Shown here piece after piece: positions 1 through 34,196 of a DNA stretch of 64,000 nt; the first letter of the stretch is position 1, and each line of letters begins with the position of its first letter. Below the pieces are notes generated by a model. That model saw nothing but the letters and a program-made list of their open reading frames with translations. It searched no databases and was not told where the DNA came from. The stretch is from Promicromonospora soli. GTDB lineage: Bacteria > Actinomycetota > Actinomycetes > Actinomycetales > Cellulomonadaceae. The DNA lies in contig NZ_BNAS01000001.1 in the NCBI RefSeq assembly GCF_014653785.1, positions 1 through 64,000 on the forward strand, written 5' to 3'. Both the position numbers and the translations under genes were made by a program.

Positions 1-840
1 GACCCGCTCGATCAATGTATCGGCCATGACCTGCCCGGCCCCGCGCTCATCACCCGTGGCCCTGGCCGCATCCGCGTGCGCCTTGAGCAGCGCGTAGGCC
101 TGCACCCCCTGCTGCATCGGCACCAACGCCGTCAGATACACCATCAGATCCGGCGCCGGACGCACCGAGACACACCGCTCCGAGACCGCCCTCGCGTTCC
201 GCTTCACGCACGCCCGCGCATCCAGCTCCGCGGCCACCTCCTTGACCCGGGCGATCAACCGCCTCGTACCCATCCCGGCCAGCCCCGGAAGACCCGCAGG
301 CCCGCAGATCTCCTCGTCGACCCGGGCCCGGTCCTCCGCCGAGAGATGCGACGTCTCCCGCACCATCAGCGTCGCCCGCCACGCCGACAACACACCGGTG
401 CGCAGCGCGTCGAACGTGAACGGCATACCAGTCAGCCACACCCGCGCCGTGCCCAGAAACGATGCGCCCGTGTGCGGGCTGGACTGCATCGCCGCACCGA
501 CCTGACCGGGCACACCACGACCGCGCCGCTCAGCCCGGACACCCTGCCGAGCCTCCTCGGACCTCGTCGCCTGCTCCAGCGCCACGGCCAGCCGCGCCTG
601 GGTCGCCGTCACCGTGTTCTTCACCGCCTCGAGCTCACCCAGCAGGTCCACCCACTCGGCCCGCACCTGCCTGGACGCGGAGGAAACCGTGTCAGTGGCA
701 CCGGGCAAGATCATGCTGGCCAGGTGCAAGCGCACTGCCCGGACTTCCGCCGCGTCGGTTACCGCGCCGCCGGCGCCGAGCGGCGTGGACGGAGGCTGGC
801 CGTCGGCCGATCGAGGTGGCGTGTCACCGATTCGCGTCAT
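1..840 (-). CDS. DUF222 / 13E12-type protein, N-terminal part (runs off left edge)
   Basis: The minus strand is open from an ATG at 840 to the window edge, 280 codons with no stop, beginning MTRIGDTPPRSADGQPPSTP. The composition (AEWVDLLGELEAVKNTVTATQARLAVALEQATRSEEA, then SHLSAEDRARVDEEICG and MVYLTALVPMQQGVQAYALL, all described here in pieces) is typical of the DUF222 domain of actinobacterial 13E12 repeat proteins. That family usually carries a C-terminal HNH endonuclease-like domain, which would lie outside the window. These proteins are multi-copy in actinobacteria and are often linked to mobile DNA; their role is not established. The assignment rests on overall pattern, since the HNH motif cannot be seen. 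Confidence 0.72.
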   Translation of the reverse strand, partial: MTRIGDTPPRSADGQPPSTPLGAGGAVTDAAEVRAVRLHLASMILPGATDTVSSASRQVRAEWVDLLGELEAVKNTVTATQARLAVALEQATRSEEARQGVRAERRGRGVPGQVGAAMQSSPHTGASFLGTARVWLTGMPFTFDALRTGVLSAWRATLMVRETSHLSAEDRARVDEEICGPAGLPGLAGMGTRRLIARVKEVAAELDARACVKRNARAVSERCVSVRPAPDLMVYLTALVPMQQGVQAYALLKAHADAARATGDERGAGQVMADTLIERV

Positions 841-910
841 GCTATCAATATAGCGGACACCTGTTCGACCTGCTCGACGAGACGAACGGCGTCTGCCGAC
901 AGCAGAAGAA

Positions 911-939
911 GGGCCGGCCCGCCAACGGCGGGCCGGCCC
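911..939 (-). terminator. Hairpin terminator after the LVIVD-protein gene
   Basis: Perfect 13-bp inverted repeat GGGCCGGCCCGCC / GGCGGGCCGGCCC with a 3-nt loop, 19 nt beyond the stop codon of the minus-strand gene that ends at 958. On that strand it is followed by TTCTTCT, a weak U-rich tail. It also separates that gene from the DUF222 gene start at 840. Confidence 0.75.
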
Positions 940-957
940 CACTATGGTGCGGCTGTG

Positions 958-2817
958 TCAGGGGTTGTACTTGAAGATCCAGAGCCCGTGATCGCGGTCG
1001 CTGGCCGCGACGTACTCCTGGCCGTCCTGCTGGAAGACCTGGACGCCCCAGAAGTTGTTGCCGTCCTCGTCGATGTAGTGACCCTTCTCCACCAGCTCGT
1101 CGTTCTCGATCTCCACAACTCGGAAGCCGCCGGAGTAGTAGGAGAAGTAGAGCCGGTCGGCGATCGTCTCCGAGACGGCAACCTCGTGCACGGAGAGGTC
1201 ACCGTAGCCGGTCGCGTAATCCTCGTCGTGCGCCTCGGGGATGGCGTAGGTGTCGAGCTCGGTCATCTTGCCGTCCTCGTTGTCGAACAGGTGCACGTAG
1301 CCCCAGCCGTCGAAGATCGCCTTGATGGTGATCGCGTCACCGACGGTGCCGATGGCCACGCCCGGTATGGTCGTCGCGGTCCCCGCCAGGCAGGCGGCGT
1401 CGTCGTACCCGGTGACGTCGAAGAACCCGTATCCGGTCTCGCGGTCGGCCGCGAAGGTCGGCGTCTCGCCTTCTACGGACATTCCGAACAGGCCACAGCC
1501 GTCGCTACCTTCACGGTTGACGATGACTGCGCCCTCGTAGCCCTTCCCGTCGACGTTCGCCAGCTTCTCGGTGAAGGTGCAGACACCCCGGGAGACGACG
1601 GCGATCTGGCTGCCGCTCGTGGTCGATGGAGCAGGCGGCACTGCCGCATCCGCGTCGCACGCCTGGCCGACGTACACCGCGTCACCGCTCACCGTCTCAC
1701 CGCCCGGGACGTGCGTGGTGTCGCTGCCCTGGGACGAAGGGAACACGGCGGAGTCGTCGTCGGTGAAGCCCTCGGCGGAGTCAGGACCGAAGTCCTCGTC
1801 CGCGCCGATGACGTACTGGTTGTCGATCGTGAACTCGGCCTGGTGGGCGTTCCCTTCAGGCTTCTCGCTCAGTCCCGCGGACTCGAGCAGCTCGGGGTCG
1901 GGGTCGGCGAAGTCGGTGTCGCCCAGGTACCGGGGGGCGGTGACGTTCGTGATGTCGATCTTGACGTAGCCGGCGTCCCAGTACGACAGCAGCATGACCT
2001 GCCGGCCGTCGATCTCCTTGACGATCATGTCGTGCAGGAACACCTCGACCAAGTTGCTCGGCCCGGCCTGCAAGATCTGGGGGAAGGTCGCGTCGAGGTC
2101 GTACTCGGCCGCGAGGAACGGCTTGCGGGGGTTCGTGATGTCCATGATGTCGAAATCCGTCCCCTCTTCGTTGTCGGTCATCACGACGTAGGCACGGTCA
2201 CCGGCGTCCCAGGCGAAGACACTGTGGATCTCGTTGGCAGCCTTCTTGCCCTGACCGTTCACCGTCGTGTCGCCCAGGCCCTCGGCGAGCGGCGTCGGGT
2301 GTGCCGGATCCGTGACGTCGTAGAGGTTCAGGCCTCCGAATCCTGCCGTGCTCTTGTCGAGGCACTTCTCGTTGTTGGACACCAGGATGTCGCCGCTGAA
2401 CTGCTTGGTGCTGATCGGGATGGCCTGGATGCCCTCGCCCGGATAGCTGCCCTCCTTGGAGGCGATGAACGCGACCTCCTCGGGAGCGGAGACGTCGGAG
2501 ATGTCGACGACGTGGACGCCGTTGTACTTGCACGTCGTCGATCCCCATGCCGCGAGATACGCGTGGTCGTCGAGAACCCCGACGTCGGCGATCTTCTCCG
2601 GGACGACGTTCTTCAGTGCGGTCTTGCCGACGACCTCGATGTTGCCCGAGGTGCTGGCCGGCAGGTGACCCGCGGTGTCGCCGTGCTGGTGCGCGTCGCG
2701 CGCACCGTCGGCGAACGTGTAACCGCCGTCGTGGTCGGGGTGGGCCTGGGCGGCACCCGCGAACGACGCGGTCAGCAAGGCGGTGAGAACGAAACCTACG
2801 GTGGATCGCAATCGCAT
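958..2817 (-). CDS. Secreted LVIVD-repeat protein with protease-associated (PA) domain
   Basis: The protein is 619 aa from an ATG at 2817, preceded by CGGAG about 8 nt upstream. An in-frame upstream start at 2904 would hide the signal peptide and is rejected. A Sec signal peptide is visible (MRLRSTVGFVLTALLTASFA, cleavage near AQA-HP). Repeats of the type GVHVVDISDVSAPEEVAFI, LYDVTDPAHPTPLAEG and VKIDITNVTAPRYLGD match LVIVD beta-propeller blades. Between blades lies a segment with IAVVSRGVCTFTEKLANV and GAVIVNREG, which is a PA domain as found in secreted proteases and sugar-binding proteins. The final blades follow (VHLFDNEDGKMTELDTY, GGFRVVEIENDEL). No catalytic motif is seen. The likely role is an extracellular or surface binding propeller; the substrate is unknown. 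It is divergent from the metal ABC importer at 3021. Confidence 0.8.
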   Translation of the reverse strand: MRLRSTVGFVLTALLTASFAGAAQAHPDHDGGYTFADGARDAHQHGDTAGHLPASTSGNIEVVGKTALKNVVPEKIADVGVLDDHAYLAAWGSTTCKYNGVHVVDISDVSAPEEVAFIASKEGSYPGEGIQAIPISTKQFSGDILVSNNEKCLDKSTAGFGGLNLYDVTDPAHPTPLAEGLGDTTVNGQGKKAANEIHSVFAWDAGDRAYVVMTDNEEGTDFDIMDITNPRKPFLAAEYDLDATFPQILQAGPSNLVEVFLHDMIVKEIDGRQVMLLSYWDAGYVKIDITNVTAPRYLGDTDFADPDPELLESAGLSEKPEGNAHQAEFTIDNQYVIGADEDFGPDSAEGFTDDDSAVFPSSQGSDTTHVPGGETVSGDAVYVGQACDADAAVPPAPSTTSGSQIAVVSRGVCTFTEKLANVDGKGYEGAVIVNREGSDGCGLFGMSVEGETPTFAADRETGYGFFDVTGYDDAACLAGTATTIPGVAIGTVGDAITIKAIFDGWGYVHLFDNEDGKMTELDTYAIPEAHDEDYATGYGDLSVHEVAVSETIADRLYFSYYSGGFRVVEIENDELVEKGHYIDEDGNNFWGVQVFQQDGQEYVAASDRDHGLWIFKYNP

Positions 2818-2990
2818 GATGACTCCGAGGTGGTAGTCCCGGCTGAGTCGGGGGTTGTGCGCCCAGGAATGGTGGGCGCCGGGGACCAGCCTAGAGATGA
2901 CCATCCGGTCCGTGAAGAACGGAGCGCGGATACTTTGTCGGGCCTGGCCTGGCGCAAGGACCAGTGGATTCGCACCTTTGAGGACTTGTG

Positions 2991-3004
2991 TTCGGATACC
3001 CGAA
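2991..3004. promoter_or_regulatory. Candidate metal-regulator operator upstream of the metal importer
   Basis: TTCGGATACCCGAA is an inverted repeat (TTCGG / CCGAA) ending 16 nt before the importer start codon, followed by TTTTAGGG and a partial second copy TTTCGGTATGCC that overlaps the start. DtxR/MntR-family repressors commonly bind such positions in front of mntABC operons. The sequence was not matched to a known consensus, so this is a positional inference. Confidence 0.3.
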
Positions 3005-3020
3005 CTTTTAGGGTTTCGGT

Positions 3021-3956
3021 ATGCCCAGCACTCGCCGTACCCACGCCGTCGCCCGGTTCGCGCTCCCCGTCGTGCTGGCCGCGGGTGCGCTGTCCGGCTG
3101 CTCGGCGTCGGCCCTGGAGCGCGCGGCGGACGACCGGCCGGTGGTGCTGACCACGTTCACGGTGCTCGCGGACGTCGCGCAGAACGTGGCCGGCGAGCAC
3201 CTGCGGGTGGAGTCGATCACGAAGGCAGGCGCGGAGATCCACGGGTACGAGCCGACGCCGCTCGACATCGCGCGGGCGTCCGAGGCGGACCTGATCCTGG
3301 ACAACGGGCTGAACCTCGAGTCATGGTTCGGGCAGTTCGTCGAGTCGGTGGACGTGCCGCACGTGGTCGTGTCGGACGGCGTCGAGCCGGTGGACATCAC
3401 CGAGGACGCCTATGCCGGCAAGCCGAACCCGCACGCGTGGATGAGCCCCGTGAACGTGCAGGTCTACGTCGACAACATGGTCGACGCGTTCAGCGGCCTC
3501 GACCCGGAGCACGCCGACGACTTCGAGGCCAACGGCGCGGCGTACCAGGCGGAGCTGCAAGAGGTCCAGGACGAGCTCGTCGCCGGGCTGTCGGCGCTGC
3601 CGGAGAACGAGCGGGCGCTGGTGACCTGCGAGGGCGCGTTCTCCTATCTCGCCCGCGACGCGGGACTGACCGAGCGGTACATCTGGCCGGTGAATGCCGA
3701 GCAGCAGGCCACGCCGCAGCAGATCGCCTCGGCCATCGAGTTCGTCGAGACCAACGACGTCCCGGCCGTGTTCTGCGAGTCGACGGTCTCGGACAAGCCG
3801 ATGCAGCAGGTGGTCGAGGCGACCGGCGCGGCCTTCGGCGGCACCCTCTACGTCGACTCCCTCTCCGAGGCCGACGGACCGGTGCCGACCTACCTCGACC
3901 TGATCCGCTACGACGCCACGACGATCATCGACGCGCTCGCCGGAGGCCAGTCATGA
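3021..3956 (+). CDS. Metal (Mn/Zn-type) ABC transporter substrate-binding lipoprotein
   Basis: 311 aa. The N-terminus has a lipoprotein signal with lipobox LSGC (Cys27), so the protein is anchored outside the membrane. The cluster A-I metal-binding ligands are all visible: His in EIHGYEPTPLDI, His in NPHAWMSPVN, Glu in VFCESTVSDKP and Asp in LYVDSLSEADGPVPTYLDL. This pattern is typical of the MntC/PsaA/ZnuA family, and the sequence resembles the manganese type more than the His-rich zinc type. An AGGG Shine-Dalgarno lies 7 nt before the ATG. It overlaps the downstream ATPase gene by 4 bp (ATGA), so the three genes form one operon. Mn versus Zn specificity cannot be decided from sequence alone. 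Confidence 0.9.
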   Translation: MPSTRRTHAVARFALPVVLAAGALSGCSASALERAADDRPVVLTTFTVLADVAQNVAGEHLRVESITKAGAEIHGYEPTPLDIARASEADLILDNGLNLESWFGQFVESVDVPHVVVSDGVEPVDITEDAYAGKPNPHAWMSPVNVQVYVDNMVDAFSGLDPEHADDFEANGAAYQAELQEVQDELVAGLSALPENERALVTCEGAFSYLARDAGLTERYIWPVNAEQQATPQQIASAIEFVETNDVPAVFCESTVSDKPMQQVVEATGAAFGGTLYVDSLSEADGPVPTYLDLIRYDATTIIDALAGGQS

Positions 3957-4714
3957 CCGGGCCCGCAACGCTCCGGCCCGCCGCGATCGAGGTCGCGGAC
4001 GTCGTCGTCCGCTACGGCGAGGTCCTGGCCCTCGACGGCGTGTCCCTGAGCGTCGAGCCGGGGCGGGTGACGGGGCTGATCGGGATGAACGGGTCCGGCA
4101 AGTCGACGCTCTTCAAGGCGATCATGGGCATGCTGCGCCCCGAGCGCGGAAAGGTGCTGATCGACGGCGCCGACCCGGCCCTGGCACGCAGGCGGGGCGT
4201 CGTCGGATACGTGCCGCAGAGCGAGGACGTCGACTGGGCGTTCCCCGTGTCCGTGCGTGACGTGGTCATGATGGGCCGCTACGGGCGCCAGGGCCCCACC
4301 CGGCGAGCCCGGCCGGCCGACCACGCAGCGGTCGCCGAGGCGCTGGACCGGGTCGAGCTCACAGCGTATGCCGACCGGCAGATCGGGCAGCTGTCCGGCG
4401 GGCAGCGCAAGCGCGCGTTCGTCGCCCGCGGCATCGCCCAGGACGCCGGCGTGCTGCTGCTCGACGAGCCCTTCGCCGGCGTCGACAAGCGGTCCGAGGC
4501 GACGATCGTCCGGCTGCTGAAGGAGCTGGCGGCCGACGGCCGCACGGTCCTGGTGTCCACCCACGACCTGCACGCCCTGCCGCAGCTGGCCGACGAGGCG
4601 GTGCTGCTGCTGCACCGGATCCTGTTCCACGGCGACGTGTCCGAGGCGCTGCGGCCGGAGAACCTCGCCCGCGCGTTCGGCCTCGACGTGCTCGACGAAG
4701 GGGCTTCCGCATGA
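3953..4714 (+). CDS. Metal ABC transporter ATP-binding protein
   Basis: 253 aa cytoplasmic ATPase that powers the importer. Walker A is GMNGSGKST, the signature is LSGGQRKRAF, Walker B is VLLLDEPF and the switch His is in VSTHDLHAL. The length and the sequence YVPQSEDVDWAFPVSVRDVV match the MntB/ZnuC class. The ATG overlaps the stop codon of the binding-protein gene by 4 bp, and its own stop overlaps the permease start in the same way, so translation is probably coupled. Confidence 0.92.
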   Translation: MTGPATLRPAAIEVADVVVRYGEVLALDGVSLSVEPGRVTGLIGMNGSGKSTLFKAIMGMLRPERGKVLIDGADPALARRRGVVGYVPQSEDVDWAFPVSVRDVVMMGRYGRQGPTRRARPADHAAVAEALDRVELTAYADRQIGQLSGGQRKRAFVARGIAQDAGVLLLDEPFAGVDKRSEATIVRLLKELAADGRTVLVSTHDLHALPQLADEAVLLLHRILFHGDVSEALRPENLARAFGLDVLDEGASA

Positions 4715-5580
4715 GCGCCCTCGACCTGCTGCTGGAGCCCCTGCAGTACGACTTCATGGTCCGCGCGCTCGTGACCACGGCGATCGCCGCCGTCGTCTGT
4801 GCGCTGCTGTCGTGCTGGCTCGTCCTGGTGGGCTGGTCGCTGATGGGCGACGCCGTCTCCCACGCCGTCCTGCCCGGGGTCGTGATCGCCTACGTGCTCG
4901 GCGCGCCGTTCGCGCTCGGGGCACTCGTGTTCGGGTTCCTCGCCGTCGCCCTGATCGGCGCGATCCGCGGCACGAGCCGCGTCAAGGAGGACGCCGCGAT
5001 CGGCATCGTGTTCACCACCCTGTTCGCCCTCGGCCTCGTGCTCATCTCCGTCACGCCTAGCCAGACCGACCTGAACCACATCATCTTCGGCAACATCCTC
5101 GGCGTCTCGGACGCCGACCTCGTCCAGATCGCCGTCCTGGCGACCATCGCCTTCGTGATCCTGGTCCTCAAGCGCCGCGACCTGACCCTGTACGCGTTCG
5201 ACCCCATGCACGCGCACGCCATCGGGCTCTCGCCCCGGTTCCTCGGGGCGCTGCTGCTCGGGCTCCTCGCGCTCACCGCCGTCGTCGCCCTCCAGGTGGT
5301 CGGGGTGATCCTGGTCGTGGCGATGCTGATCATCCCCGGCGCCACCGCGTACCTGCTCACCGACCGGTTCGGGCGGATGCTCGTGATCGCCCCGGTGCTG
5401 TCAGTGGTCTGCTCGGTGGTGGGGATCTACCTCAGCTACTGGCTCGACGCCGCCTCCGGCGGGCTGGTCGTCGTCGTGCAGGGCGTCGCGTTCGCCCTCG
5501 TCTACCTGTTCGCCCCCCGCCACGGGCTGCTCGGCAAGCAGCTCACTGCTCGACGGCGGACCGCGCCGGCCCGGGTGTGA
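4711..5580 (+). CDS. Metal ABC transporter permease
   Basis: 289 aa with about eight hydrophobic helices, an ABC-3 family permease. The segments MGDAVSHAVLPGVVIAYVLG and KEDAAIGIVFTTLFALGLVL are characteristic of Mn/Zn permeases. It is the last gene of the three-gene importer operon and starts within the stop of the ATPase gene (ATGA overlap). A strong hairpin follows its stop. Confidence 0.92.
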   Translation: MSALDLLLEPLQYDFMVRALVTTAIAAVVCALLSCWLVLVGWSLMGDAVSHAVLPGVVIAYVLGAPFALGALVFGFLAVALIGAIRGTSRVKEDAAIGIVFTTLFALGLVLISVTPSQTDLNHIIFGNILGVSDADLVQIAVLATIAFVILVLKRRDLTLYAFDPMHAHAIGLSPRFLGALLLGLLALTAVVALQVVGVILVVAMLIIPGATAYLLTDRFGRMLVIAPVLSVVCSVVGIYLSYWLDAASGGLVVVVQGVAFALVYLFAPRHGLLGKQLTARRRTAPARV

Positions 5581-5587
5581 CGACAAC

Positions 5588-5616
5588 GTCCCGGGGGCCG
5601 CGCCGGCCCCCGGGAC
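5588..5616. terminator. Bidirectional terminator between convergent genes
   Basis: Perfect 13-bp arms GTCCCGGGGGCCG / CGGCCCCCGGGAC around a CGC loop. It lies 7 nt after the metal permease stop and 8 nt before the stop of the convergent Gfo/Idh gene, so it can serve both. Confidence 0.8.
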
Positions 5617-5624
5617 CCGTCCGG

Positions 5625-6707
5625 CTACGGCGCGTCCGACAGCGGGACGGCCGCCGGCCGCTCGCACGTGCTCTCTACCGTGACCAGCGTGCCGCTGTCG
5701 GCCGACGCGAGCAGCGCGGTCATGACGTCGAGCACGTGGTACGCGATATCGCCGTTCGCACGCGCGGGGACTCCCGGCGGCGTGGTCGCGAGATCGGCGA
5801 CGCCGCACCCACGCGCCGCATCCCGGTATCCGGCGCTGGGCGGCAGGGTCCGCCAGGCGCCACCGAGCTCGTGCAGCTGCACGTCGCCGTCGAACTGGTT
5901 GGGATCGGGGACGACGAGCGACCCGGTCTGGCCGTGGACCTCGATCTCGGAGGCCCGTGTGGCCACCGAGTCGAAGCTCATCACCAGGGTCGAGAGCACT
6001 CCGGACTCGTGCCGCAGCACACCGGTCACGTGCGTATCGACCTCGACCGGGATGACCGTCCCCTCGCGGGGCCCTGACCCGATCGCGCGCGTGGCCCGGG
6101 TGTGGCTCGCGGCGCCGACGACGGACACGACCGGGCCGAGCAGGGTGACCAGCGTGGTCACGTAGTACGGACCCATGTCCAGCAACGGGCCGCCGCCGGG
6201 CTGGTAGTAGAAGTCGGGGTTCGGGTGCCAGCGCTCGTGGCCGGGCGTCATCATGGTCGCTGTCGCCGCGACCGGCTTCCCGATCGCGCCGTCGTCGATG
6301 GCCTTCCTGGCCGTCTGCACGCCCGTCCCGAGCACGGTGTCCGGTGCGCAGCCCACCCGCACCCCGGCCGCGCTGCCTGCCTTGATCACGGTCCGGGCGT
6401 CCTCGAGCGTGGCCGCGAGCGGCTTCTCGCCGTACACGTCCTTGCCGGCGGTGATGGCCTTCAGGGCGATCTCGGCATGGGCGGCCGGAGTCGTGAGGTT
6501 CAGCACGAGATCGACCTCGGGGTCGGACGTGAGCTCATCGACGGTCAGCGCGCGCACGCCCTGTTCCGCGGCGACCGACTCCGCACGGGCGGTGTCGAGG
6601 TCGGCGACCGCGACGAGGCGCACGGCCCCGAGCCGCTCGAACGTGGACAGGTACTGGCCGGAGATCGCTCCGAGGCCGACGATCCCGACTCTCAGCGGCT
6701 GGCCCAC
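5625..6707 (-). CDS. Gfo/Idh/MocA-family NAD(P)-dependent oxidoreductase
   Basis: 360 aa from a GTG start at 6707, with GAGGGG about 8 nt upstream. The reading frame stays open further upstream, but that stretch is an antisense shadow of the ThuA gene. The N-terminal Rossmann motif is VGIVGLGAISGQYL, and the conserved GEKPLA motif supplies the catalytic-site lysine. The C-terminal Gfo/Idh domain follows (FYYQPGGGPLLDMGPYY). Such enzymes oxidise sugars, inositols or sugar acids. It overlaps the stop of the ThuA gene by 16 nt and forms an operon with it under the divergent LacI regulator. The substrate is unknown. Confidence 0.88.
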   Translation of the reverse strand: MGQPLRVGIVGLGAISGQYLSTFERLGAVRLVAVADLDTARAESVAAEQGVRALTVDELTSDPEVDLVLNLTTPAAHAEIALKAITAGKDVYGEKPLAATLEDARTVIKAGSAAGVRVGCAPDTVLGTGVQTARKAIDDGAIGKPVAATATMMTPGHERWHPNPDFYYQPGGGPLLDMGPYYVTTLVTLLGPVVSVVGAASHTRATRAIGSGPREGTVIPVEVDTHVTGVLRHESGVLSTLVMSFDSVATRASEIEVHGQTGSLVVPDPNQFDGDVQLHELGGAWRTLPPSAGYRDAARGCGVADLATTPPGVPARANGDIAYHVLDVMTALLASADSGTLVTVESTCERPAAVPLSDAP

Positions 6708-7399
6708 AGGATGCCCCTCTCGATGATGGTCCGGACGTTCGGGTCGTCGACGACGGCGAGGTTGTGGCCCGGCGTCGAGACGAAGATGCGGCCCTCGCCC
6801 CACAGGCGGGTCCAGACGGCCGGGCACGTGACCGGCCGGTGCCACGGGTCGAAGTCCCGGGCGGGGTGCGTCGTGGTCGCGAGCACGTCGTTGTAGTCGT
6901 CGGACAGCACCCAGTACTGCTCGGTCGTCAGCTCGAAGTCGGAGATCCCGGCGACGATCGGGTGGTCGGCCTTCTCGGGCACGATGTCGATCGTGTGCCG
7001 CACGAAGTTGTCGGTGGCGTCGCCCTGGAGCTCGCCGGGGGCGGCCTTCGCCGGGTGCGTGGCGAACTGGCCGCCGATGAGCTGGAGGTAGTCCGAGCTG
7101 TTCCGGTAGGAGTCGGCGATACCGCCGTGCCACCCCGCCAGCCCCGTGCCGTTGCCCACGGCCGCGATCAGCCCGCGGAGCTCGTCACCGTCGATCGTGT
7201 TCATCGTGTTGGTCTGGACGACGACGTCGACGCCGGCCAGGTAGTCGGCGTCGGCGTACACCGCCGTCGTCTCCTCGACCCGCACGTCGTACCCGTGCTC
7301 GGTCAGGAAGGGAATGAACGAGTCGGTGGTCTCGACGGGCTCATGCCCCGTCCATCCCCCGCGCATGATCAGCGCGTGCTTCTTCTTCGAAGTTGTCAT
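6692..7399 (-). CDS. ThuA-domain protein (trehalose/sugar utilisation type)
   Basis: 235 aa from an ATG at 7399 with AAGGGCAGG just upstream. ThuA domains have a class-I glutamine amidotransferase-like fold; the sequence shows ALIMRGGWTGHEP near the start, then GLAGWHGGIADSYRNSSDY and DHPIVAGISDFELTTEQYWV. ThuA proteins are linked to uptake and oxidation of trehalose-type disaccharides or other sugars. It is the first gene of a two-gene operon with the Gfo/Idh oxidoreductase. The operator at 7414-7429 sits 15 nt upstream of its start codon, so repression by the neighbouring LacI protein is likely. Confidence 0.85.
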   Translation of the reverse strand: MTTSKKKHALIMRGGWTGHEPVETTDSFIPFLTEHGYDVRVEETTAVYADADYLAGVDVVVQTNTMNTIDGDELRGLIAAVGNGTGLAGWHGGIADSYRNSSDYLQLIGGQFATHPAKAAPGELQGDATDNFVRHTIDIVPEKADHPIVAGISDFELTTEQYWVLSDDYNDVLATTTHPARDFDPWHRPVTCPAVWTRLWGEGRIFVSTPGHNLAVVDDPNVRTIIERGILWASR

Positions 7400-7413
7400 C
7401 CTGCCCTTGCTCC

Positions 7414-7429
7414 AAAAGTTGCGCAACAT
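7414..7429. promoter_or_regulatory. LacI-type operator, ThuA-proximal copy
   Basis: AAAAGTTGCGCAACAT contains the perfect palindrome GTTGCGCAAC with the central CG typical of LacI-family sites. It is an exact reverse complement of the site at 7492-7507; the centres are 78 bp apart. Confidence 0.75.
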
Positions 7430-7491
7430 CGGGACGCACACAGTGCCGCCCCCTTTGATACATGACGTCAGGCGGGAGATCAAGCGCGCCA

Positions 7492-7507
7492 ATGTTGCGC
7501 AACTTTT
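7492..7507. promoter_or_regulatory. LacI-type operator, regulator-proximal copy
   Basis: ATGTTGCGCAACTTTT, the mirror copy of the site at 7414-7429. It lies 22 nt before the lacI-family start codon, which suggests autoregulation as well as control of the divergent thuA operon. Confidence 0.75.
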
Positions 7508-7529
7508 CCGCTGCGGCTACCGTCCCCGT

Positions 7530-8549
7530 ATGCAGAACGCTCGCCGGACGACGCTCGCGGACGTGGCGAAGGCGGCCGGGACCACGGTGCCGACGATCTC
7601 GAAGGTGCTGAGCGGCCGCTCCGACGTCTCGGCCGAGACCCGTTCGCGGGTGATGGAGATCGTCGCGGAGCTCGGGTACCGCGGGCGGTCCGGCCGGAAC
7701 GCCGCGACGCACCGAGGACGATCGCCGTTCGTCGACCTCGTGCTCAGCGGGGTCGAGGGCACCTGGGCGAACCGCGCGCTCAGCGGCGTCGCGCATGCCG
7801 CCGAGGAGGCAGGCCTCGACGTCGTCGTCTCGGTGGCCCGGCCACCCGACGACGCCTGGCTCACGAGGCTGCTCACGCGGAGGCTGCGCGGAGCGGTGCT
7901 GGCGCTCGTCGACACCACGAGCGAACAGCTCGCGACGCTGGCCGCGGCCCAGGTGCCGATCGTGCTGCTCGATCCGGTGTCCCAGCCGCCGAGCACGGTC
8001 GCCAGCGTGGGAGCCGCCAACTGGGCCGGTGGCCGTGCGGCCGCGGAGCATCTGCTCTCGCTGGGCCACCGGCGCCTCGCCGTGCTGGCGGGGCGGCGCA
8101 CGCATCTCTACAGCCAGGCCCGTATCGACGGGTTCCGCTCAGCCGTCACGCAGGCCGGCCTCGAGCTCCCCGACCATCGGGTCGCGCACACCGACTGGCA
8201 GCGCGCGAGCGCCGCCGAGCAAGCCACCGAGCTGTTGCGGGCCACGCCCGCCCCGACGGCGGTCTTCGCGTGCTCCGACACCATGGCACTCGGCGTGTAC
8301 GACGCATCCGCCGCCCTGGGCCTCCGGATCCCTGACGACGTCAGCGTGGTGGGTTTCGACGACCTGCCCGAGGCGCAGTGGGTCAGCCCCGCGCTCACCA
8401 CCGTGCGTCAGCCCATCGCGGAGATGGGCTCCGCCGCGCTCCGGATGCTGCTGCGCATCAGCTCCGATCCGGCGCGCGAGGCGCCGCGCGAGGAGCTCGC
8501 CACGTCGCTCGTCGTGCGCGGGTCGACGGCGGCTGTCGCCGGGAGTTGA
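7530..8549 (+). CDS. LacI-family transcriptional regulator
   Basis: 339 aa. The N-terminal helix-turn-helix is RTTLADVAKAAGTTVPTISK followed by the hinge VLSGRSDVSAETRSRV. The periplasmic-binding-protein-like sensor domain follows (VLLDPVSQPP, AVFACSDTMALGVYDA, VSVVGFDDLPEAQWVSPALT). The ATG at 7530 is chosen because it places the HTH at the N-terminus; the longer upstream frame overlaps the operators. It is divergent from the thuA/oxidoreductase operon and very probably binds the two GTTGCGCAAC operators between them. The inducer is likely a sugar or sugar derivative handled by that operon. Confidence 0.93.
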   Translation: MQNARRTTLADVAKAAGTTVPTISKVLSGRSDVSAETRSRVMEIVAELGYRGRSGRNAATHRGRSPFVDLVLSGVEGTWANRALSGVAHAAEEAGLDVVVSVARPPDDAWLTRLLTRRLRGAVLALVDTTSEQLATLAAAQVPIVLLDPVSQPPSTVASVGAANWAGGRAAAEHLLSLGHRRLAVLAGRRTHLYSQARIDGFRSAVTQAGLELPDHRVAHTDWQRASAAEQATELLRATPAPTAVFACSDTMALGVYDASAALGLRIPDDVSVVGFDDLPEAQWVSPALTTVRQPIAEMGSAALRMLLRISSDPAREAPREELATSLVVRGSTAAVAGS

Positions 8550-8583
8550 GCCGGGGCGCGCGCCCGGCCGCGGACACCAGGCG

Positions 8584-10293
8584 TCAGCGCGCGTCGATCG
8601 GCGTCAGCCGGACCAGCGGGTCCGGGCGGTGCACGCCGCGCGGCCGGTAGCCCAACGCGTCCGCGAGGCCGAGGTAGTCGGACAGCAGCCAGATGATGCT
8701 CAGCCACATCTCGGTCCCCTGCAGGCCCGCGACGCCGTCGGGGCCGCCGCTCCGGGGAGCGAAGGCGAAGCCGGCGCCGTCGGACCAGTGCTGCAGCGCC
8801 TGCCGCAGCTGGTCGTGCGCCCAGGCCGCGACCTCGGTACGGCGGTGCGCGGTCTGCTTGGCCGCGAACCAGAGCGGGTGGATGACGTCCAGGATGTTGC
8901 AGGCGGTGTATCCCTCGGGGGTCGCGAGGTGTGGGTCGGACGCGTGCTCCAGCACGGTGTCGATCGCCGCCTCGGGATACGGCAGCGGCAGCCCGAGCTG
9001 CGCGTAAGAGCCGCGGGTCAGCCGGTAGAACCCGTTCACCGCCTGGAGCCAGCGCGGGGCCGGCTGCGGCGCGCCCCACATGCCCGTCTCGGGGTTCGCT
9101 CGCGCCGTCAGCCAGCCCATGAGCCCGTAGACGGGGCCGGTCCCGCCGTCGGCGAGCTCCTCGGAGAAGTCCGCGATGTTGAGGGCACACGCCGTGGCAA
9201 GGGAGTCGACGGCGGCGCCGCTCCCCCAGGCCTGCGCGCCCCAGTCGCGCGCTTCGAGGGAGCGGACGACGTCCCGCTCGGTCAGCGCGTGCACCGCGCG
9301 CACGGGGTGCGGGAGCCGCCCGCCGAGCAGCCGGACCGCGTAGCCGACGCTCAGGATGTGATAGCTCGCGCTGCCGTCTGTTGGCGTGAGGACCTCGTCG
9401 GACGCCGGCGCTTGCGCCAGGCCGCGATCGGAGATGTCCCCCGCCGGAATCAGCCCGGACGCCGGTTCCTGGCGGGCGGTGAGCCGCCGGACCAGGTCCG
9501 CGGCGTCGAACCCGGGTGGCGGAGAGCCGAGCAGCAGGTCGGCGACCTCGACGGCGTCCGCCCACGGCCGGATGGCCGGTTCGAGCGGCCCCGCGAGGGC
9601 TGACGGACGGTCGACGAATCGACCGTCCTCGAAGCAGCGCGCCAGCAGATCCCCGGCCTCTTCGCGCGCCCGCTCCGCGAAGGCCTGGAGCTCTGCCCCA
9701 AGGTCGGAAGGCTGCGGGCTGCGGGTCTCGGTTCGGCGATCGCGAATCACGCGCGCCGGGTTGCCCGCGACGACGGCCCAGTCGGGCACGTCCTTCGTGA
9801 CGACGGCGCTCGCCCCGATGATGACGTGGTCGCCGACGGTGACGCCGTCGAGGATCGTGGCGTTCGAGCCGATCCACACGTCGTCCCCGAGGGTGATGCC
9901 CTTGCTCCACGTGCCCTGCTTGTGGATCGGCAGGTCGTTTGACATGCGGTGGTTGAAGCCGAGGATCGAGCTGTGCGCGCCGATCCGGACGCCGTCGCCC
10001 ATCCGGATCTCGCCGCGGACCACGGCGTAGGGATTGATCGAGCAGTCCGCGCCGATCGTCAGCTCGCCCGTGACGTAGGCGAGCGCCGCGATGTAGGTGC
10101 GGTCGCCGACGCTGAGCCGGTCGCAGAAGACCGCCGCGTTCGGGGCGATGAACACACCTTCACCGATCTGCGCGCCCGAGGCGATCAGGTCCTGCTGCCG
10201 GATCGCTTGTGCCTCGGCCTCCGGCGACGTGGGGTCGTACTCCCAGGGGAAGAAGTCGATGCGTCGGACGCCCTCGGCCGCTGAGTGATGCAC
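8584..10293 (-). CDS. Hexapeptide-repeat acyltransferase fused to a large alpha-helical C-terminal domain
   Basis: 569 aa. Residues ~35-190 are a left-handed beta-helix (LbH) acyltransferase of the xenobiotic/maltose acetyltransferase type: repeated hexapeptides such as IGADCSINPYAVVRGEIRMG and IGSNATILDGVTVGDHVIIG, ending in VVAGNPARVIRDR. Normal family members stop near 190-220 aa. Here a further ~370 residues follow with regularly spaced Trp/Ala-rich helices (YHILSVGYAVRLLGG, GLMGWLTARANPETGMWG, GLQGTEMWLSIIWLLSDYLG), suggesting an alpha/alpha-toroid like that of terpene cyclases or glycan-processing barrels. No known catalytic motif was recognised in that part. It lies convergent with the LacI gene and divergent from the gene at 10344. 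Confidence 0.75.
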   Translation of the reverse strand: MHHSAAEGVRRIDFFPWEYDPTSPEAEAQAIRQQDLIASGAQIGEGVFIAPNAAVFCDRLSVGDRTYIAALAYVTGELTIGADCSINPYAVVRGEIRMGDGVRIGAHSSILGFNHRMSNDLPIHKQGTWSKGITLGDDVWIGSNATILDGVTVGDHVIIGASAVVTKDVPDWAVVAGNPARVIRDRRTETRSPQPSDLGAELQAFAERAREEAGDLLARCFEDGRFVDRPSALAGPLEPAIRPWADAVEVADLLLGSPPPGFDAADLVRRLTARQEPASGLIPAGDISDRGLAQAPASDEVLTPTDGSASYHILSVGYAVRLLGGRLPHPVRAVHALTERDVVRSLEARDWGAQAWGSGAAVDSLATACALNIADFSEELADGGTGPVYGLMGWLTARANPETGMWGAPQPAPRWLQAVNGFYRLTRGSYAQLGLPLPYPEAAIDTVLEHASDPHLATPEGYTACNILDVIHPLWFAAKQTAHRRTEVAAWAHDQLRQALQHWSDGAGFAFAPRSGGPDGVAGLQGTEMWLSIIWLLSDYLGLADALGYRPRGVHRPDPLVRLTPIDAR

Positions 10294-11158: not shown

Positions 11159-11232
<74 letters not shown>

Positions 11233-31116: not shown

Positions 31117-32397
31117 TTACGCACTGAGGCGCGTCAGTTCCTCGCTCATGGCGCGCACAAAGGCGGCACCGGGCACGTTCGCCGCGTCGAAGTGGACGCC
31201 GCACGAGAGCCGGCCGGCATACGAGACCGCCGCGACGCCCAGCCGGACGTTCGCGGCGAGCACCGCAACCGGCCAGATCGCGACCACGGGAGCGCCAGCG
31301 AGGCGCAGCGCTCCCGCCGGACCCGGCACGTTGGTGACGAACCCGCCGACAACGTGCTGCCGCTGCCCGATGCGATCCATGATGCGCGCCCCGACCGGGC
31401 CGCGCATGAACTCGAGTGTCCCCTGCTCCCGCGCCTGTACCTTCTCCGCTCGGGTCTGCTCCGCGATCAGCCGAAGGCGCTCGTCGGGCGCCGGCACGTC
31501 GAGCGGCAGCCGCACGAGCATGACCCCGACCTGGTTGCCCGATGTGCCACGCCGCTGCAGCGCGACCGGCACGGAGACGGGCAGTCGTGCAGGAACCTGC
31601 TCACCGGCTGCTGGCAGCGCCGCTCGGTAGCCCGAAGCGACGGACGCGAGCAGCGCGTCATTGACGGTGGCACCCAACGGTCGCACACGCGCCTCGAGCG
31701 CTGCGAGGTCCACGTCCACGAAGGCGACGCCGCGGCGCGGACTGATCTCGCCGAGCAGCACCGTGGACCCCACCTCACGACCGGCGAGCACCATCCGGAT
31801 GCGGCGCAGAGCGTAGCCGAGCCTCCGGAGAACGCGCCGCAAGTCGCGTCGTGGTCTTGATTCGGCGCCCGGCCGGGACTGTGGGACCGCAGGCGCCCAC
31901 GCCGAGGTCAGTCCAGGTTCCGCGGAATCGAACAGCTGCTGCGCGATCGCAACCGCGGCCATTCCATCCGCAACCGCGTGGTGGATGCGGAGCACGACCC
32001 CGATCTGTCCGGGACTCGCACCGGGCACGACCAAGATCTCCCAGAGCGGACGGTCGAGCCGTAGTGGCACCCCCATCAGCTCTCCGCACAGCCGTTCGAG
32101 GCCCGCGAGGCCATCGACGGACGCGACGAGCCGGATGTGGTGTTCGAGGTCCGGCGACGTCTCGTCCCAGCGGTGCCGACGACCGGTGGCGACGGGGACT
32201 TTGCGGAGCGGTGGCAGCTCGGCGATTCGCTTGGCGAGCGCGGAGCGCAGCGTCGCGACGTCAGGCGTGCCGTCGGGACCGATCAACCCGCCCGGGACCA
32301 GGAGGCCGGCGACGAGGAAGACGTTGACCTGGCCGGCGTGGTCGAGCACAAGGTTCGCCTCGTCGACCGCGGCGAGCCGCTGTGTCGCCTGGCGCAT
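31117..32397 (-). CDS. Wax ester synthase / diacylglycerol acyltransferase (WS/DGAT)
   Basis: 426 aa. The active-site HHxxxDG motif is present as LRIHHAVADGMAAV. The N-terminus (RLAAVDEANLVLDHAGQVNV) and the C-terminal part (FVTNVPGPAGALRLAGAPVV, WPVAVLAANVRLGVAAVSYA) match the actinobacterial WS/DGAT family. These enzymes esterify acyl-CoA with diacylglycerol or fatty alcohol to make storage lipids. The protein is somewhat shorter than the usual 450-470 aa but keeps both domains. Confidence 0.9.
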   Translation of the reverse strand: MRQATQRLAAVDEANLVLDHAGQVNVFLVAGLLVPGGLIGPDGTPDVATLRSALAKRIAELPPLRKVPVATGRRHRWDETSPDLEHHIRLVASVDGLAGLERLCGELMGVPLRLDRPLWEILVVPGASPGQIGVVLRIHHAVADGMAAVAIAQQLFDSAEPGLTSAWAPAVPQSRPGAESRPRRDLRRVLRRLGYALRRIRMVLAGREVGSTVLLGEISPRRGVAFVDVDLAALEARVRPLGATVNDALLASVASGYRAALPAAGEQVPARLPVSVPVALQRRGTSGNQVGVMLVRLPLDVPAPDERLRLIAEQTRAEKVQAREQGTLEFMRGPVGARIMDRIGQRQHVVGGFVTNVPGPAGALRLAGAPVVAIWPVAVLAANVRLGVAAVSYAGRLSCGVHFDAANVPGAAFVRAMSEELTRLSA

Positions 32398-32429: not shown

Positions 32430-34196
32430 TCAGTCGACGTCGGGTCGGCGAGCCCGGGCCTCTGCGTCGAGCCTCCTGACGCCGGGGTAGGCCGGCGGAC
32501 AGTCGGCCCTCAGGTCGTCACTCAGATGCTTCGCGAACGGCGGGGCGATGATCTCGCGGTGCGCCGGGTCGTGGCCCGGTACCGGGCCCCACTTGAAGCC
32601 CAAGGCGGCCGTGGTGAGCTCCAGCGCGCGGCGGTACTCGGCGTACAGCGAGTCCAGGGCGCCCTCGAGGCGGGACCGGTCCACGGGGTATGTCTGCCCG
32701 TCCTCGAGAGAGGTCCCGACGGGACCGATGTACAGGTGCGCATGCAGCTGGGAGAAGTCGTGCCCGGGGATCTGGCTGTGCGCAACCCGGGTGATCGACA
32801 GTCGCGCCGGGTCGTTGACCCCGTGTTCCACCTCCACGTGGCCGGCCTCGCGCTGCAGCCACCTGACCGCCACGTCGACGGCGTCGACGTGGAGGTTGGT
32901 CAGCCACTCGAGGAGGAAGCCGCGGCGGGAGTCGGTGGATTTTGCCATCGCTTCGCGTGCGAGGGACACGGTCAGGGGCGCGGGCAGGTAGACCTCCACG
33001 GTGCCGTCCGGTGGGGCCTGCGTGCCCACGTCGAACAGGTCGGCGGGCTCCACTCGCGTCGAGGCGGGAGGCGGCGGCGACTCGTCGTCCTCGGCCCCTT
33101 GCCCCGTCGTGGCCGTCCTGTCGCTGGTAGGTGCGGCGTCCGGCACCGGCTCGATAACTCGGGTCGACCCAGGTGTCTTGCCGTAGACGACGACGTGGCC
33201 GCGGCCGCTGTTCTTGGCGCGGTAGACGGCCTGGTCGGCCTCGTTCAGCACGGCGTCGGCATCGGTGGAAGCGTCCAGGTTGAAGGTGATCCCCACGCTG
33301 GCGCCGACGCGCACCTCGTTGCCATCCCCGACATCGATCGGTAGGGAGACCGCTTCGATGATCCGTTGGGCAACCGCTACGGCTGAGGTCTCGCGGTCGA
33401 CGGGTTCGAGAACGACGACGAACTCGTCGCCGCCAAGCCGGGCGGCGACGTCTCCGGCACGGCTGTTGGCTCGCAGCCGGTCGGCGACCGTGCGCAGGAC
33501 CTTGTCACCGGCCTGGTGGCCGTGGGTGTCGTTGACGGTCTTGAACGCGTCGAGGTCAATGAACATCACGGCGATCAGGTCCCCGCTGCGCTGTGCACGG
33601 CTCAGGGCCGCGTGCAGTGTTCGCATCGCCTGAGCGCGGTTGGGCAGGTCGGTCAACGGGTCGTGGGTCGCTTGGAAGGCCAGGCGTTCCTGGGTGCGGG
33701 CCAGCGCGTGCACTCGGGTGGAGATGACCACTGCGACGCCGACCGCGATCGGCATCAGGATCACCGTGGAGCCGATCAGGCGCGCATCCGCGCCCGAGAG
33801 CACCAGGGGCACCGCGTAGGCCACGGCCCCCAGGGGGGCGCACCACATGATGACCTTCAGGCGATGATGCAGGCCCAGCCAGGCGAAGAAGAGCACGAAG
33901 AACGGCCCCGTGCCCGCCGCGAACCCGCCGAACGCCCACGTGGACACACCGATCAACGTGAATGCCGGCCAAGCCAGGACCGCCGTCCGCTCAGCCGGCC
34001 ATGATGCCCACGGACAGGCGAGAGTCAGGCCCGCCGTGGCCAGGTCCGCCACGGCGATCACTACGAGCAACGTTTCCCGACCAGGGCTGGTCGGAACGGC
34101 CATCAGCGCGAGCACACCCGAAAGAGCGAACAGCCCGGCAGCCTGAACCGCAGCGTTCCCACACCGGTTCAGCAACCACGCACGAAATTCGCTCAT
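32430..34196 (-). CDS. Membrane GGDEF protein with a MobF-relaxase-like C-terminal domain
   Basis: 588 aa from an ATG at 34196 with GGGGGAG 6-8 nt upstream. Residues ~15-160 form about six membrane helices. Residues ~175-340 are a GGDEF domain with intact active site (RLGGDEFVVVL, 255-259) and an RAGD inhibitory site five residues before it, so it should make c-di-GMP with feedback control. After a Pro/acidic linker, residues ~393-553 resemble the TrwC/MobF relaxase fold: VEVYLPAPLTVSLA, NLHVDAVDVAVRWLQREAGH, ITRVAHSQIPGHDFSQLHAH and LEDGQTYPVDRSRLEGALDS, then TTAALGFKWG. The three metal-binding His are kept (473, 485, 487), but the N-terminal nicking tyrosines of relaxases have no counterpart. 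The link between the domains is unknown; relaxase homology is inferred by eye. Confidence 0.85.
   Translation of the reverse strand: MSEFRAWLLNRCGNAAVQAAGLFALSGVLALMAVPTSPGRETLLVVIAVADLATAGLTLACPWASWPAERTAVLAWPAFTLIGVSTWAFGGFAAGTGPFFVLFFAWLGLHHRLKVIMWCAPLGAVAYAVPLVLSGADARLIGSTVILMPIAVGVAVVISTRVHALARTQERLAFQATHDPLTDLPNRAQAMRTLHAALSRAQRSGDLIAVMFIDLDAFKTVNDTHGHQAGDKVLRTVADRLRANSRAGDVAARLGGDEFVVVLEPVDRETSAVAVAQRIIEAVSLPIDVGDGNEVRVGASVGITFNLDASTDADAVLNEADQAVYRAKNSGRGHVVVYGKTPGSTRVIEPVPDAAPTSDRTATTGQGAEDDESPPPPASTRVEPADLFDVGTQAPPDGTVEVYLPAPLTVSLAREAMAKSTDSRRGFLLEWLTNLHVDAVDVAVRWLQREAGHVEVEHGVNDPARLSITRVAHSQIPGHDFSQLHAHLYIGPVGTSLEDGQTYPVDRSRLEGALDSLYAEYRRALELTTAALGFKWGPVPGHDPAHREIIAPPFAKHLSDDLRADCPPAYPGVRRLDAEARARRPDVD

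Follow-up and report, generated by a model that had tools for sequence, protein, structure and literature searches.

The DNA analysed here, hereafter the window, is a 64-kb stretch from Promicromonospora soli. Reading-frame analysis identifies a real, uninterrupted gene at 34196..32430 on its minus strand that codes for 588 residues. The parts of this gene and its neighbour are:

32430..34196, minus strand: fusion gene of 588 residues, in the order transmembrane (TM) module, GGDEF domain, linker, MobF-like domain (reading frame and Pfam)
33687..34196, minus strand: N-terminal membrane module, residues 1-170 (hydropathy and relatives elsewhere)
33198..33671, minus strand: GGDEF diguanylate cyclase domain, residues 176-333, with the GGDEF motif and RxxD I-site intact (PF00990)
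33069..33191, minus strand: variable linker, residues 336-376 (comparison with Antribacter)
32433..33068, minus strand: C-terminal domain, residues 377-588, colinear with stand-alone plasmid proteins (alignment)
32514..33020, minus strand: part aligned to the MobF profile, residues 393-561 (hhalign)
32994..32996, minus strand: Glu401, aligned with MobF/TrwC Asp85; all 11 rows have an acidic residue here (alignment)
32778..32780, minus strand: His473, which may be the third metal ligand; of the 11 rows, five have His here and six have Glu (alignment)
32736..32744, minus strand: His485-Ala-His487, forming the HxH (HUH) motif that all 11 rows share (alignment)
31117..32397, minus strand: WS/DGAT acyltransferase gene next to the fusion, on the same strand, starting 33 bases past the fusion stop

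The N-terminal half of the protein has the features of a membrane-bound diguanylate cyclase. A hydropathy scan finds four strongly hydrophobic windows ahead of the GGDEF domain, PF00990 matches residues 176-333 with an E-value of 1.9e-45, and the DPLTDLPNR stretch, the GGDEF motif and the RxxD inhibitory site are all intact. This bears out the original prediction of an intact membrane GGDEF protein with a long tail beyond the GGDEF domain. The adjacency of the acyltransferase gene is probably incidental; no such gene was found adjoining the related fusion in Antribacter. The idea of a mobile element around the gene was rejected: the sole tRNA of the 64-kb window lies at 11159, and of the five flanking proteins scanned none matches a mobile-element family and two match nothing.

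It is the tail that sets this protein apart. Pfam's TrwC profile (PF08751, cut-off 25 bits) matches residues 431-545 with 26.2 bits within the whole protein, rising to 29.4 bits for the isolated domain; the NCBIfam MobF profile scores 22-24 bits on the fusion, well under its cut-off of 100. When the domain was used as a tblastn query against 72,556 plasmid records, ten were matched, all from Pseudonocardia, and searches from two divergent members recovered the same ten. Each plasmid copy encodes a protein of 230-263 residues annotated as "hypothetical protein" and colinear with the window domain from near its start. We aligned the domains of the window fusion and the Antribacter fusion with nine plasmid proteins as a family of 11 rows, leaving out the copy on L013, which has the same protein accession as that on L012. 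For comparison, a MobF set of 19 domains was assembled from 20 gathered (L025 was dropped because it lacked HxH by pattern).

The original prediction had linked the tail to relaxases and proposed comparison with relaxase profiles; run with hhalign, this comparison matched the family to the MobF set with a probability of 98.1% and an E-value of 1.3e-13 over 162 columns, pairing domain positions 17-185 with MobF 155-330 (L012 numbering). Sixty column shuffles reached probabilities of at most 1.1% and a reversed version 0.1%. The match persists in every subset, at 95.4% for the window fusion alone, 96.4% for the stand-alone proteins alone and 94.6% for the two fusions alone. It is also reciprocal: a family profile built without any MobF sequence picks up MobF genes, for it gave 20 non-fusion loci, 17 of which carry a reading frame matching Pseudonocardia MobF at E<=1e-20. 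When the reading frames were scanned again with the family profile (E<=1), 14 of the 20 loci matched, 12 of them among the 17, as did five of the seven MobF loci of Antribacter; at E<=10, only three of seven Pseudonocardia MobF proteins were matched. Loci L019, L020, L022 and L061 match the family profile without MobF confirmation and are left unclassified. Another match (L003 in G082, E-value 8.5e-4, 30% identity over 88 residues) was discarded, as its long frame looks unrelated by eye and lacks HxH.

Some results count against the link. Only two of the 11 family rows reach E<=0.1 with Pfam TrwC, and the Antribacter fusion is absent from the PF08751 matches of its own genome. Against PDB sequences, phmmer with the domain gave one irrelevant match (E-value 2.8), and a search with the family profile was empty at E<=1. 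Identity between the domain and nine aligned MobF segments from viral contigs (taken from twelve loci found) is 17-24%. An AlphaFold2 model from a two-sequence input has very low confidence (mean pLDDT 40.3, pTM 0.33); its order of elements (strand, two helices, strand, HxH strand, short strands, long helix, two strands) presumably agrees with the MobF palm, and at that pLDDT is not counted as evidence. The low identities and the empty PDB searches are what one would expect if the resemblance had arisen by convergence or chance. Against this stand the colinear profile match at 98.1%, out of reach of all 60 shuffles, the reciprocal matches and the position of the stand-alone relatives beside mobF. 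We rejected convergence or chance on the shuffles and regard it as highly improbable. Judged from its sequence, the tail shares ancestry with the C-terminal portion of the relaxase domain of MobF (TrwC/TraI), and we hold this homology, together with the fusion architecture, to be nearly certain. The relaxase link of the original prediction is thus upheld by a PF08751 score above the cut-off, by the contrast of hhalign with its shuffles and by the reciprocal matches.

Which parts of the relaxase active site does the family retain? TrwC Asp85, which we take to be the active-site acid, and His150, His161 and His163, presumably the metal ligands, were placed through an alignment of Pseudonocardia MobF with TrwC. 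In the column of Asp85, residue 401 is Glu or Asp in all 11 rows, and residues 485 and 487 are His in all 11. Residue 473 is His in five rows, including both fusions, and Glu in six; MAFFT aligns it with the third-His column of MobF and hhalign does not. W536, E548, I549, P552, P553 and C566 are also invariant across the 11 rows. The three histidines lie at exactly the residues originally named (H473, H485 and H487). The HxH part of the proposed metal triad is invariant, but with Glu at the remaining position in six of 11 rows the family as a whole does not keep the "histidine triad" as such. Of the blocks likened to MobF, the fusion has the DG stretch and the LGxxW block. Two residues conserved in MobF, the "APKSVS" Lys and the Arg within "TSR", are not kept in the family.

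A further difference concerns the tyrosines. According to an excerpt of one paper (PMC4176350), the catalytic residues of MOBF relaxases are two tyrosines and the HUH motif together with a third His. In our seven MobF rows the invariant N-terminal tyrosines are positions 14 and 39 (L006 numbering). The alignment with the domain begins at MobF 155 (L012 numbering), and the tyrosine-bearing N-terminal segment has no counterpart in the domain; the window domain has six tyrosines from residue 386 onwards, and each of these positions varies among the 11 rows. With the tyrosine segment absent, the domain lacks a defining feature of relaxases and is not classed as one.

The pattern of residues kept and lost invites the idea of a metal-dependent phosphodiesterase or nucleotidyl hydrolase in which water takes the place of the tyrosine; its substrate might be c-di-GMP, pGpG or single-stranded DNA (ssDNA). 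Retention of the acidic residue, HxH and His/Glu in all 11 rows despite the lost tyrosine segment speaks for it, as does its pairing with a domain type that synthesises a cyclic phosphodiester; the fusion would in that case combine two enzymes, as GGDEF-EAL proteins do. However, the third ligand varies between His and Glu, the stand-alone relatives adjoin mobF and the annotation of their surroundings names no GGDEF or EAL gene, and, to our knowledge, no HUH enzyme has been shown to work without a tyrosine. We consider such a hydrolase unlikely.

Annotated mobF, on the opposite strand, adjoins the stand-alone gene tail-to-tail in eight of the ten copies. The two others have what appear to be altered versions of it: on L011 an AAA ATPase gene comes next and then one annotated "relaxase domain-containing protein", which together look like a mobF split in two, and on L008 the neighbour encodes a 595-residue protein that matches MobF C-termini at 37-49% identity, apparently a MobF remnant. 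The L008 plasmid, from Pseudonocardia broussonetiae, thus has a MobF C-terminal remnant (6812-8599) beside the tyrosine-less gene and an annotated mobF elsewhere. Conversely, the stand-alone gene is present on 10 of the 12 Pseudonocardia plasmids in which a MobF domain was found. Of the two without it, NZ_CP011869 has a transposase gene after mobF; in NZ_CP012186 the linear record (1-8000 read) ends about 2 kb past the mobF start, so that a mobF of usual length would run off the record and the tail-to-tail slot is unreadable. The family is absent from that slot in three MobF plasmids of other genera (Amycolatopsis pA387, Prauserella and Amycolatopsis NBC_01480). The Prauserella and Amycolatopsis MobF plasmids L052 (3888-4376) and L053 (4291-4770) have a different small protein tail-to-tail with mobF, the two being alike by eye. 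Searches of phages with the domain and of viral contigs for its family gave no match, PHROGs gave nothing below an E-value of 0.16, and PADLOC gave nothing. The search for homologues and their neighbours proposed in the original prediction thus yielded a second fusion, in Antribacter, and stand-alone relatives that adjoin mobF or its remnant in ten of ten copies.

The small protein and mobF have also diverged in parallel. Across seven plasmids (near-copies included), their identities covary with a Mantel r of 0.94, and four of 5040 permutations were as high; L013, a copy, and L008 and L011, which have no whole neighbouring mobF, were left out. Trees of the two proteins share the groups L005+L012 and L007+(L009, L010, L014); L006 is resolved in the mobF tree and not in that of the small protein, and the position of the fusion pair among the stand-alone proteins is unresolved. 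This co-divergence can come from linkage on one plasmid backbone alone. Recent copying of the small gene from a neighbouring Pseudonocardia mobF is not supported, as the 19 MobF rows all group together on the same side of the family (100/100). The domain is recognised here for the first time as a family of its own, with stand-alone members.

Linkage in all ten plasmid copies and the parallel divergence would also suit a module for protein-protein contacts that mimics the relaxase domain as a decoy and binds either MobF or its coupling protein, as an inhibitor, immunity factor or docking partner, and the convergent arrangement of the two genes, which are not one transcript, agrees with it; the fusion would then recruit the cyclase to the transfer apparatus. 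Such a decoy, however, has no need to keep metal-site residues, and the genome of the window has no other PF08751 match and hence no visible partner, though Antribacter soli has seven strong ones besides its fusion. We judge this explanation improbable.

Fusions to GGDEF were seen in two genomes only, that of the window and that of Antribacter soli, a member of the family Promicromonosporaceae. A pattern scan of an 84,980-species collection, which sees close relatives, confirmed Antribacter only, and the 221 genomes of the family hold just these two fusions, the other five matching genomes having MobF loci. No fusion was present in any of 12 other genomes of the genus, and no further one among 99 relatives, 396 genomes of the phylum, 394 of the class and 341 of one further family (overlapping samples; L019, L020, L022 and L061 unclassified). 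The Antribacter soli genome (G038, 5.1 Mb) has seven MobF loci (L037 and L039-L044), which seems many.

The N-terminal modules of the fusion have relatives elsewhere. The same genome encodes a second TM-GGDEF protein without the extra domain, about 70% and 73% identical in two parts, and it has one EAL match, which makes c-di-GMP turnover plausible. A related membrane module (45%) occurs in a same-genus genome as part of what looks by eye like a histidine kinase (L047, 829-2589, minus strand), so the membrane module of the fusion may be an exchangeable sensor module. According to the original prediction, membrane helices and GGDEF had replaced the N-terminal tyrosines of a relaxase. This is probably not how the fusion originated, for the stand-alone proteins lack the tyrosine segment as well. 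Since they are colinear with the domain from near their start, it seems from the alignments that an already tyrosine-less protein was attached behind a complete TM-GGDEF protein.

Between the window fusion and that of Antribacter, identity is 82% in the TM part, 90% in GGDEF, 38% in the linker (39 codons) and 77% in the C-terminal domain, and dN/dS is 0.50, 0.30, 1.33 and 0.55, respectively; the C-terminal domain is under stronger constraint than the linker. These values bear on whether the tail is a chance fusion without function of its own that is merely tolerated. Occurrence in two genomes only and protein change faster than in GGDEF (0.55 vs 0.30) would fit. Yet the domain has kept 77% identity and its site residues while the linker fell to 38%, and the identical architecture is found in two genera with differing flanking genes. 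A functionless tail is in our view less likely still than the hydrolase or the decoy. Synonymous differences per site are 0.16-0.19 in the TM, GGDEF and C-terminal parts and 0.32 in the linker, compared with 0.30 in recA. Among 26 pairs of reading frames near recA, seven have pS below pN and are in the wrong frame, and others, one of them at 0.19, seem antisense on inspection by eye; the pairs judged by eye to be genes have pS of about 0.35-0.54. The lower synonymous distance of the fusion than of core genes is a hint, on limited evidence, that it passed between the two lineages after their split.

The explanation that we favour overall, with a probability of roughly 40%, is that a chromosomal membrane diguanylate cyclase gained a plasmid-type, tyrosine-less relative of the MobF domain as an additional C-terminus. 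Most likely, the domain is a predicted non-nicking module that binds ssDNA or a phosphodiester and is coupled to c-di-GMP synthesis. It would still hold a metal and bind single-stranded nucleic acid or another phosphodiester, and would be unable to form the covalent tyrosine-DNA bond. On plasmids, it might modulate the relaxosome by competing for or holding the transfer strand, either assisting MobF as a partner or acting as a brake on it. Within the fusion, it would face the cytoplasm under the membrane, where ligand binding could tune or place c-di-GMP synthesis and so tie the signal to incoming or outgoing ssDNA. The mechanism as a whole is rated at the same level as the favoured explanation or slightly below it. 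Going further, the fusion might be a sensor from conjugation to c-di-GMP, whose domain reads transfer ssDNA or the relaxase-bound strand and alters c-di-GMP output, with the plasmid relatives forming a class of relaxase partners, not described before, that control MobF transfer and do not nick; this is speculative and we give it little credence. The core of the original prediction, a relaxase-related, tyrosine-less domain on a domain for c-di-GMP synthesis, is supported by the profiles, the reciprocal matches and the stand-alone plasmid family beside mobF.

If the favoured explanation is true, a relaxase-related domain on a cyclase would provide a direct molecular link from plasmid transfer machinery to the c-di-GMP signal. 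The unnamed plasmid protein family beside mobF has the HUH metal-site residues without the tyrosine segment, and it raises testable questions about the abilities of a relaxase-type domain that has no covalent chemistry and about the control of MobF transfer in actinobacteria. A literature search over titles and the beginnings of abstracts, which covers few subscription papers, returned neither a GGDEF-relaxase fusion nor the Pseudonocardia stand-alone family among the matches listed.

Several known systems offer points of comparison. The diguanylate cyclases of SXT/R391 ICEs are separate genes. That these elements carry such cyclases is stated in an excerpt of PMC4542580 (citing Bordeleau 2010), and as far as this excerpt goes the fusion resembles them in linking c-di-GMP synthesis to conjugative elements; their cyclase genes are element-borne, whereas the fusion has its relaxase-related domain inside the cyclase gene, and no mobile genes were seen flanking that gene. 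GGDEF domains also occur in some polyvalent proteins of phages and conjugative elements (PMC5512222); the fusion differs from these in that the description, in the excerpt available, has no GGDEF joined to a MobF-type domain. With MobF itself (TrwC of R388, TraI of F; PF08751), the domain shares 162 colinear columns, HxH and an acid in the Asp85 column; the fusion also shares the DG stretch and the LGxxW block. Unlike MobF, it has neither the N-terminal segment bearing two catalytic tyrosines nor the helicase part, often has Glu at the third-His position, and has lost the conserved Lys and Arg. Finally, the fusion is like other membrane GGDEF diguanylate cyclases, including its plain paralogue in the same genome, in having a TM module and a full GGDEF domain with RxxD, and unlike them it carries an additional C-terminal domain related to relaxases.
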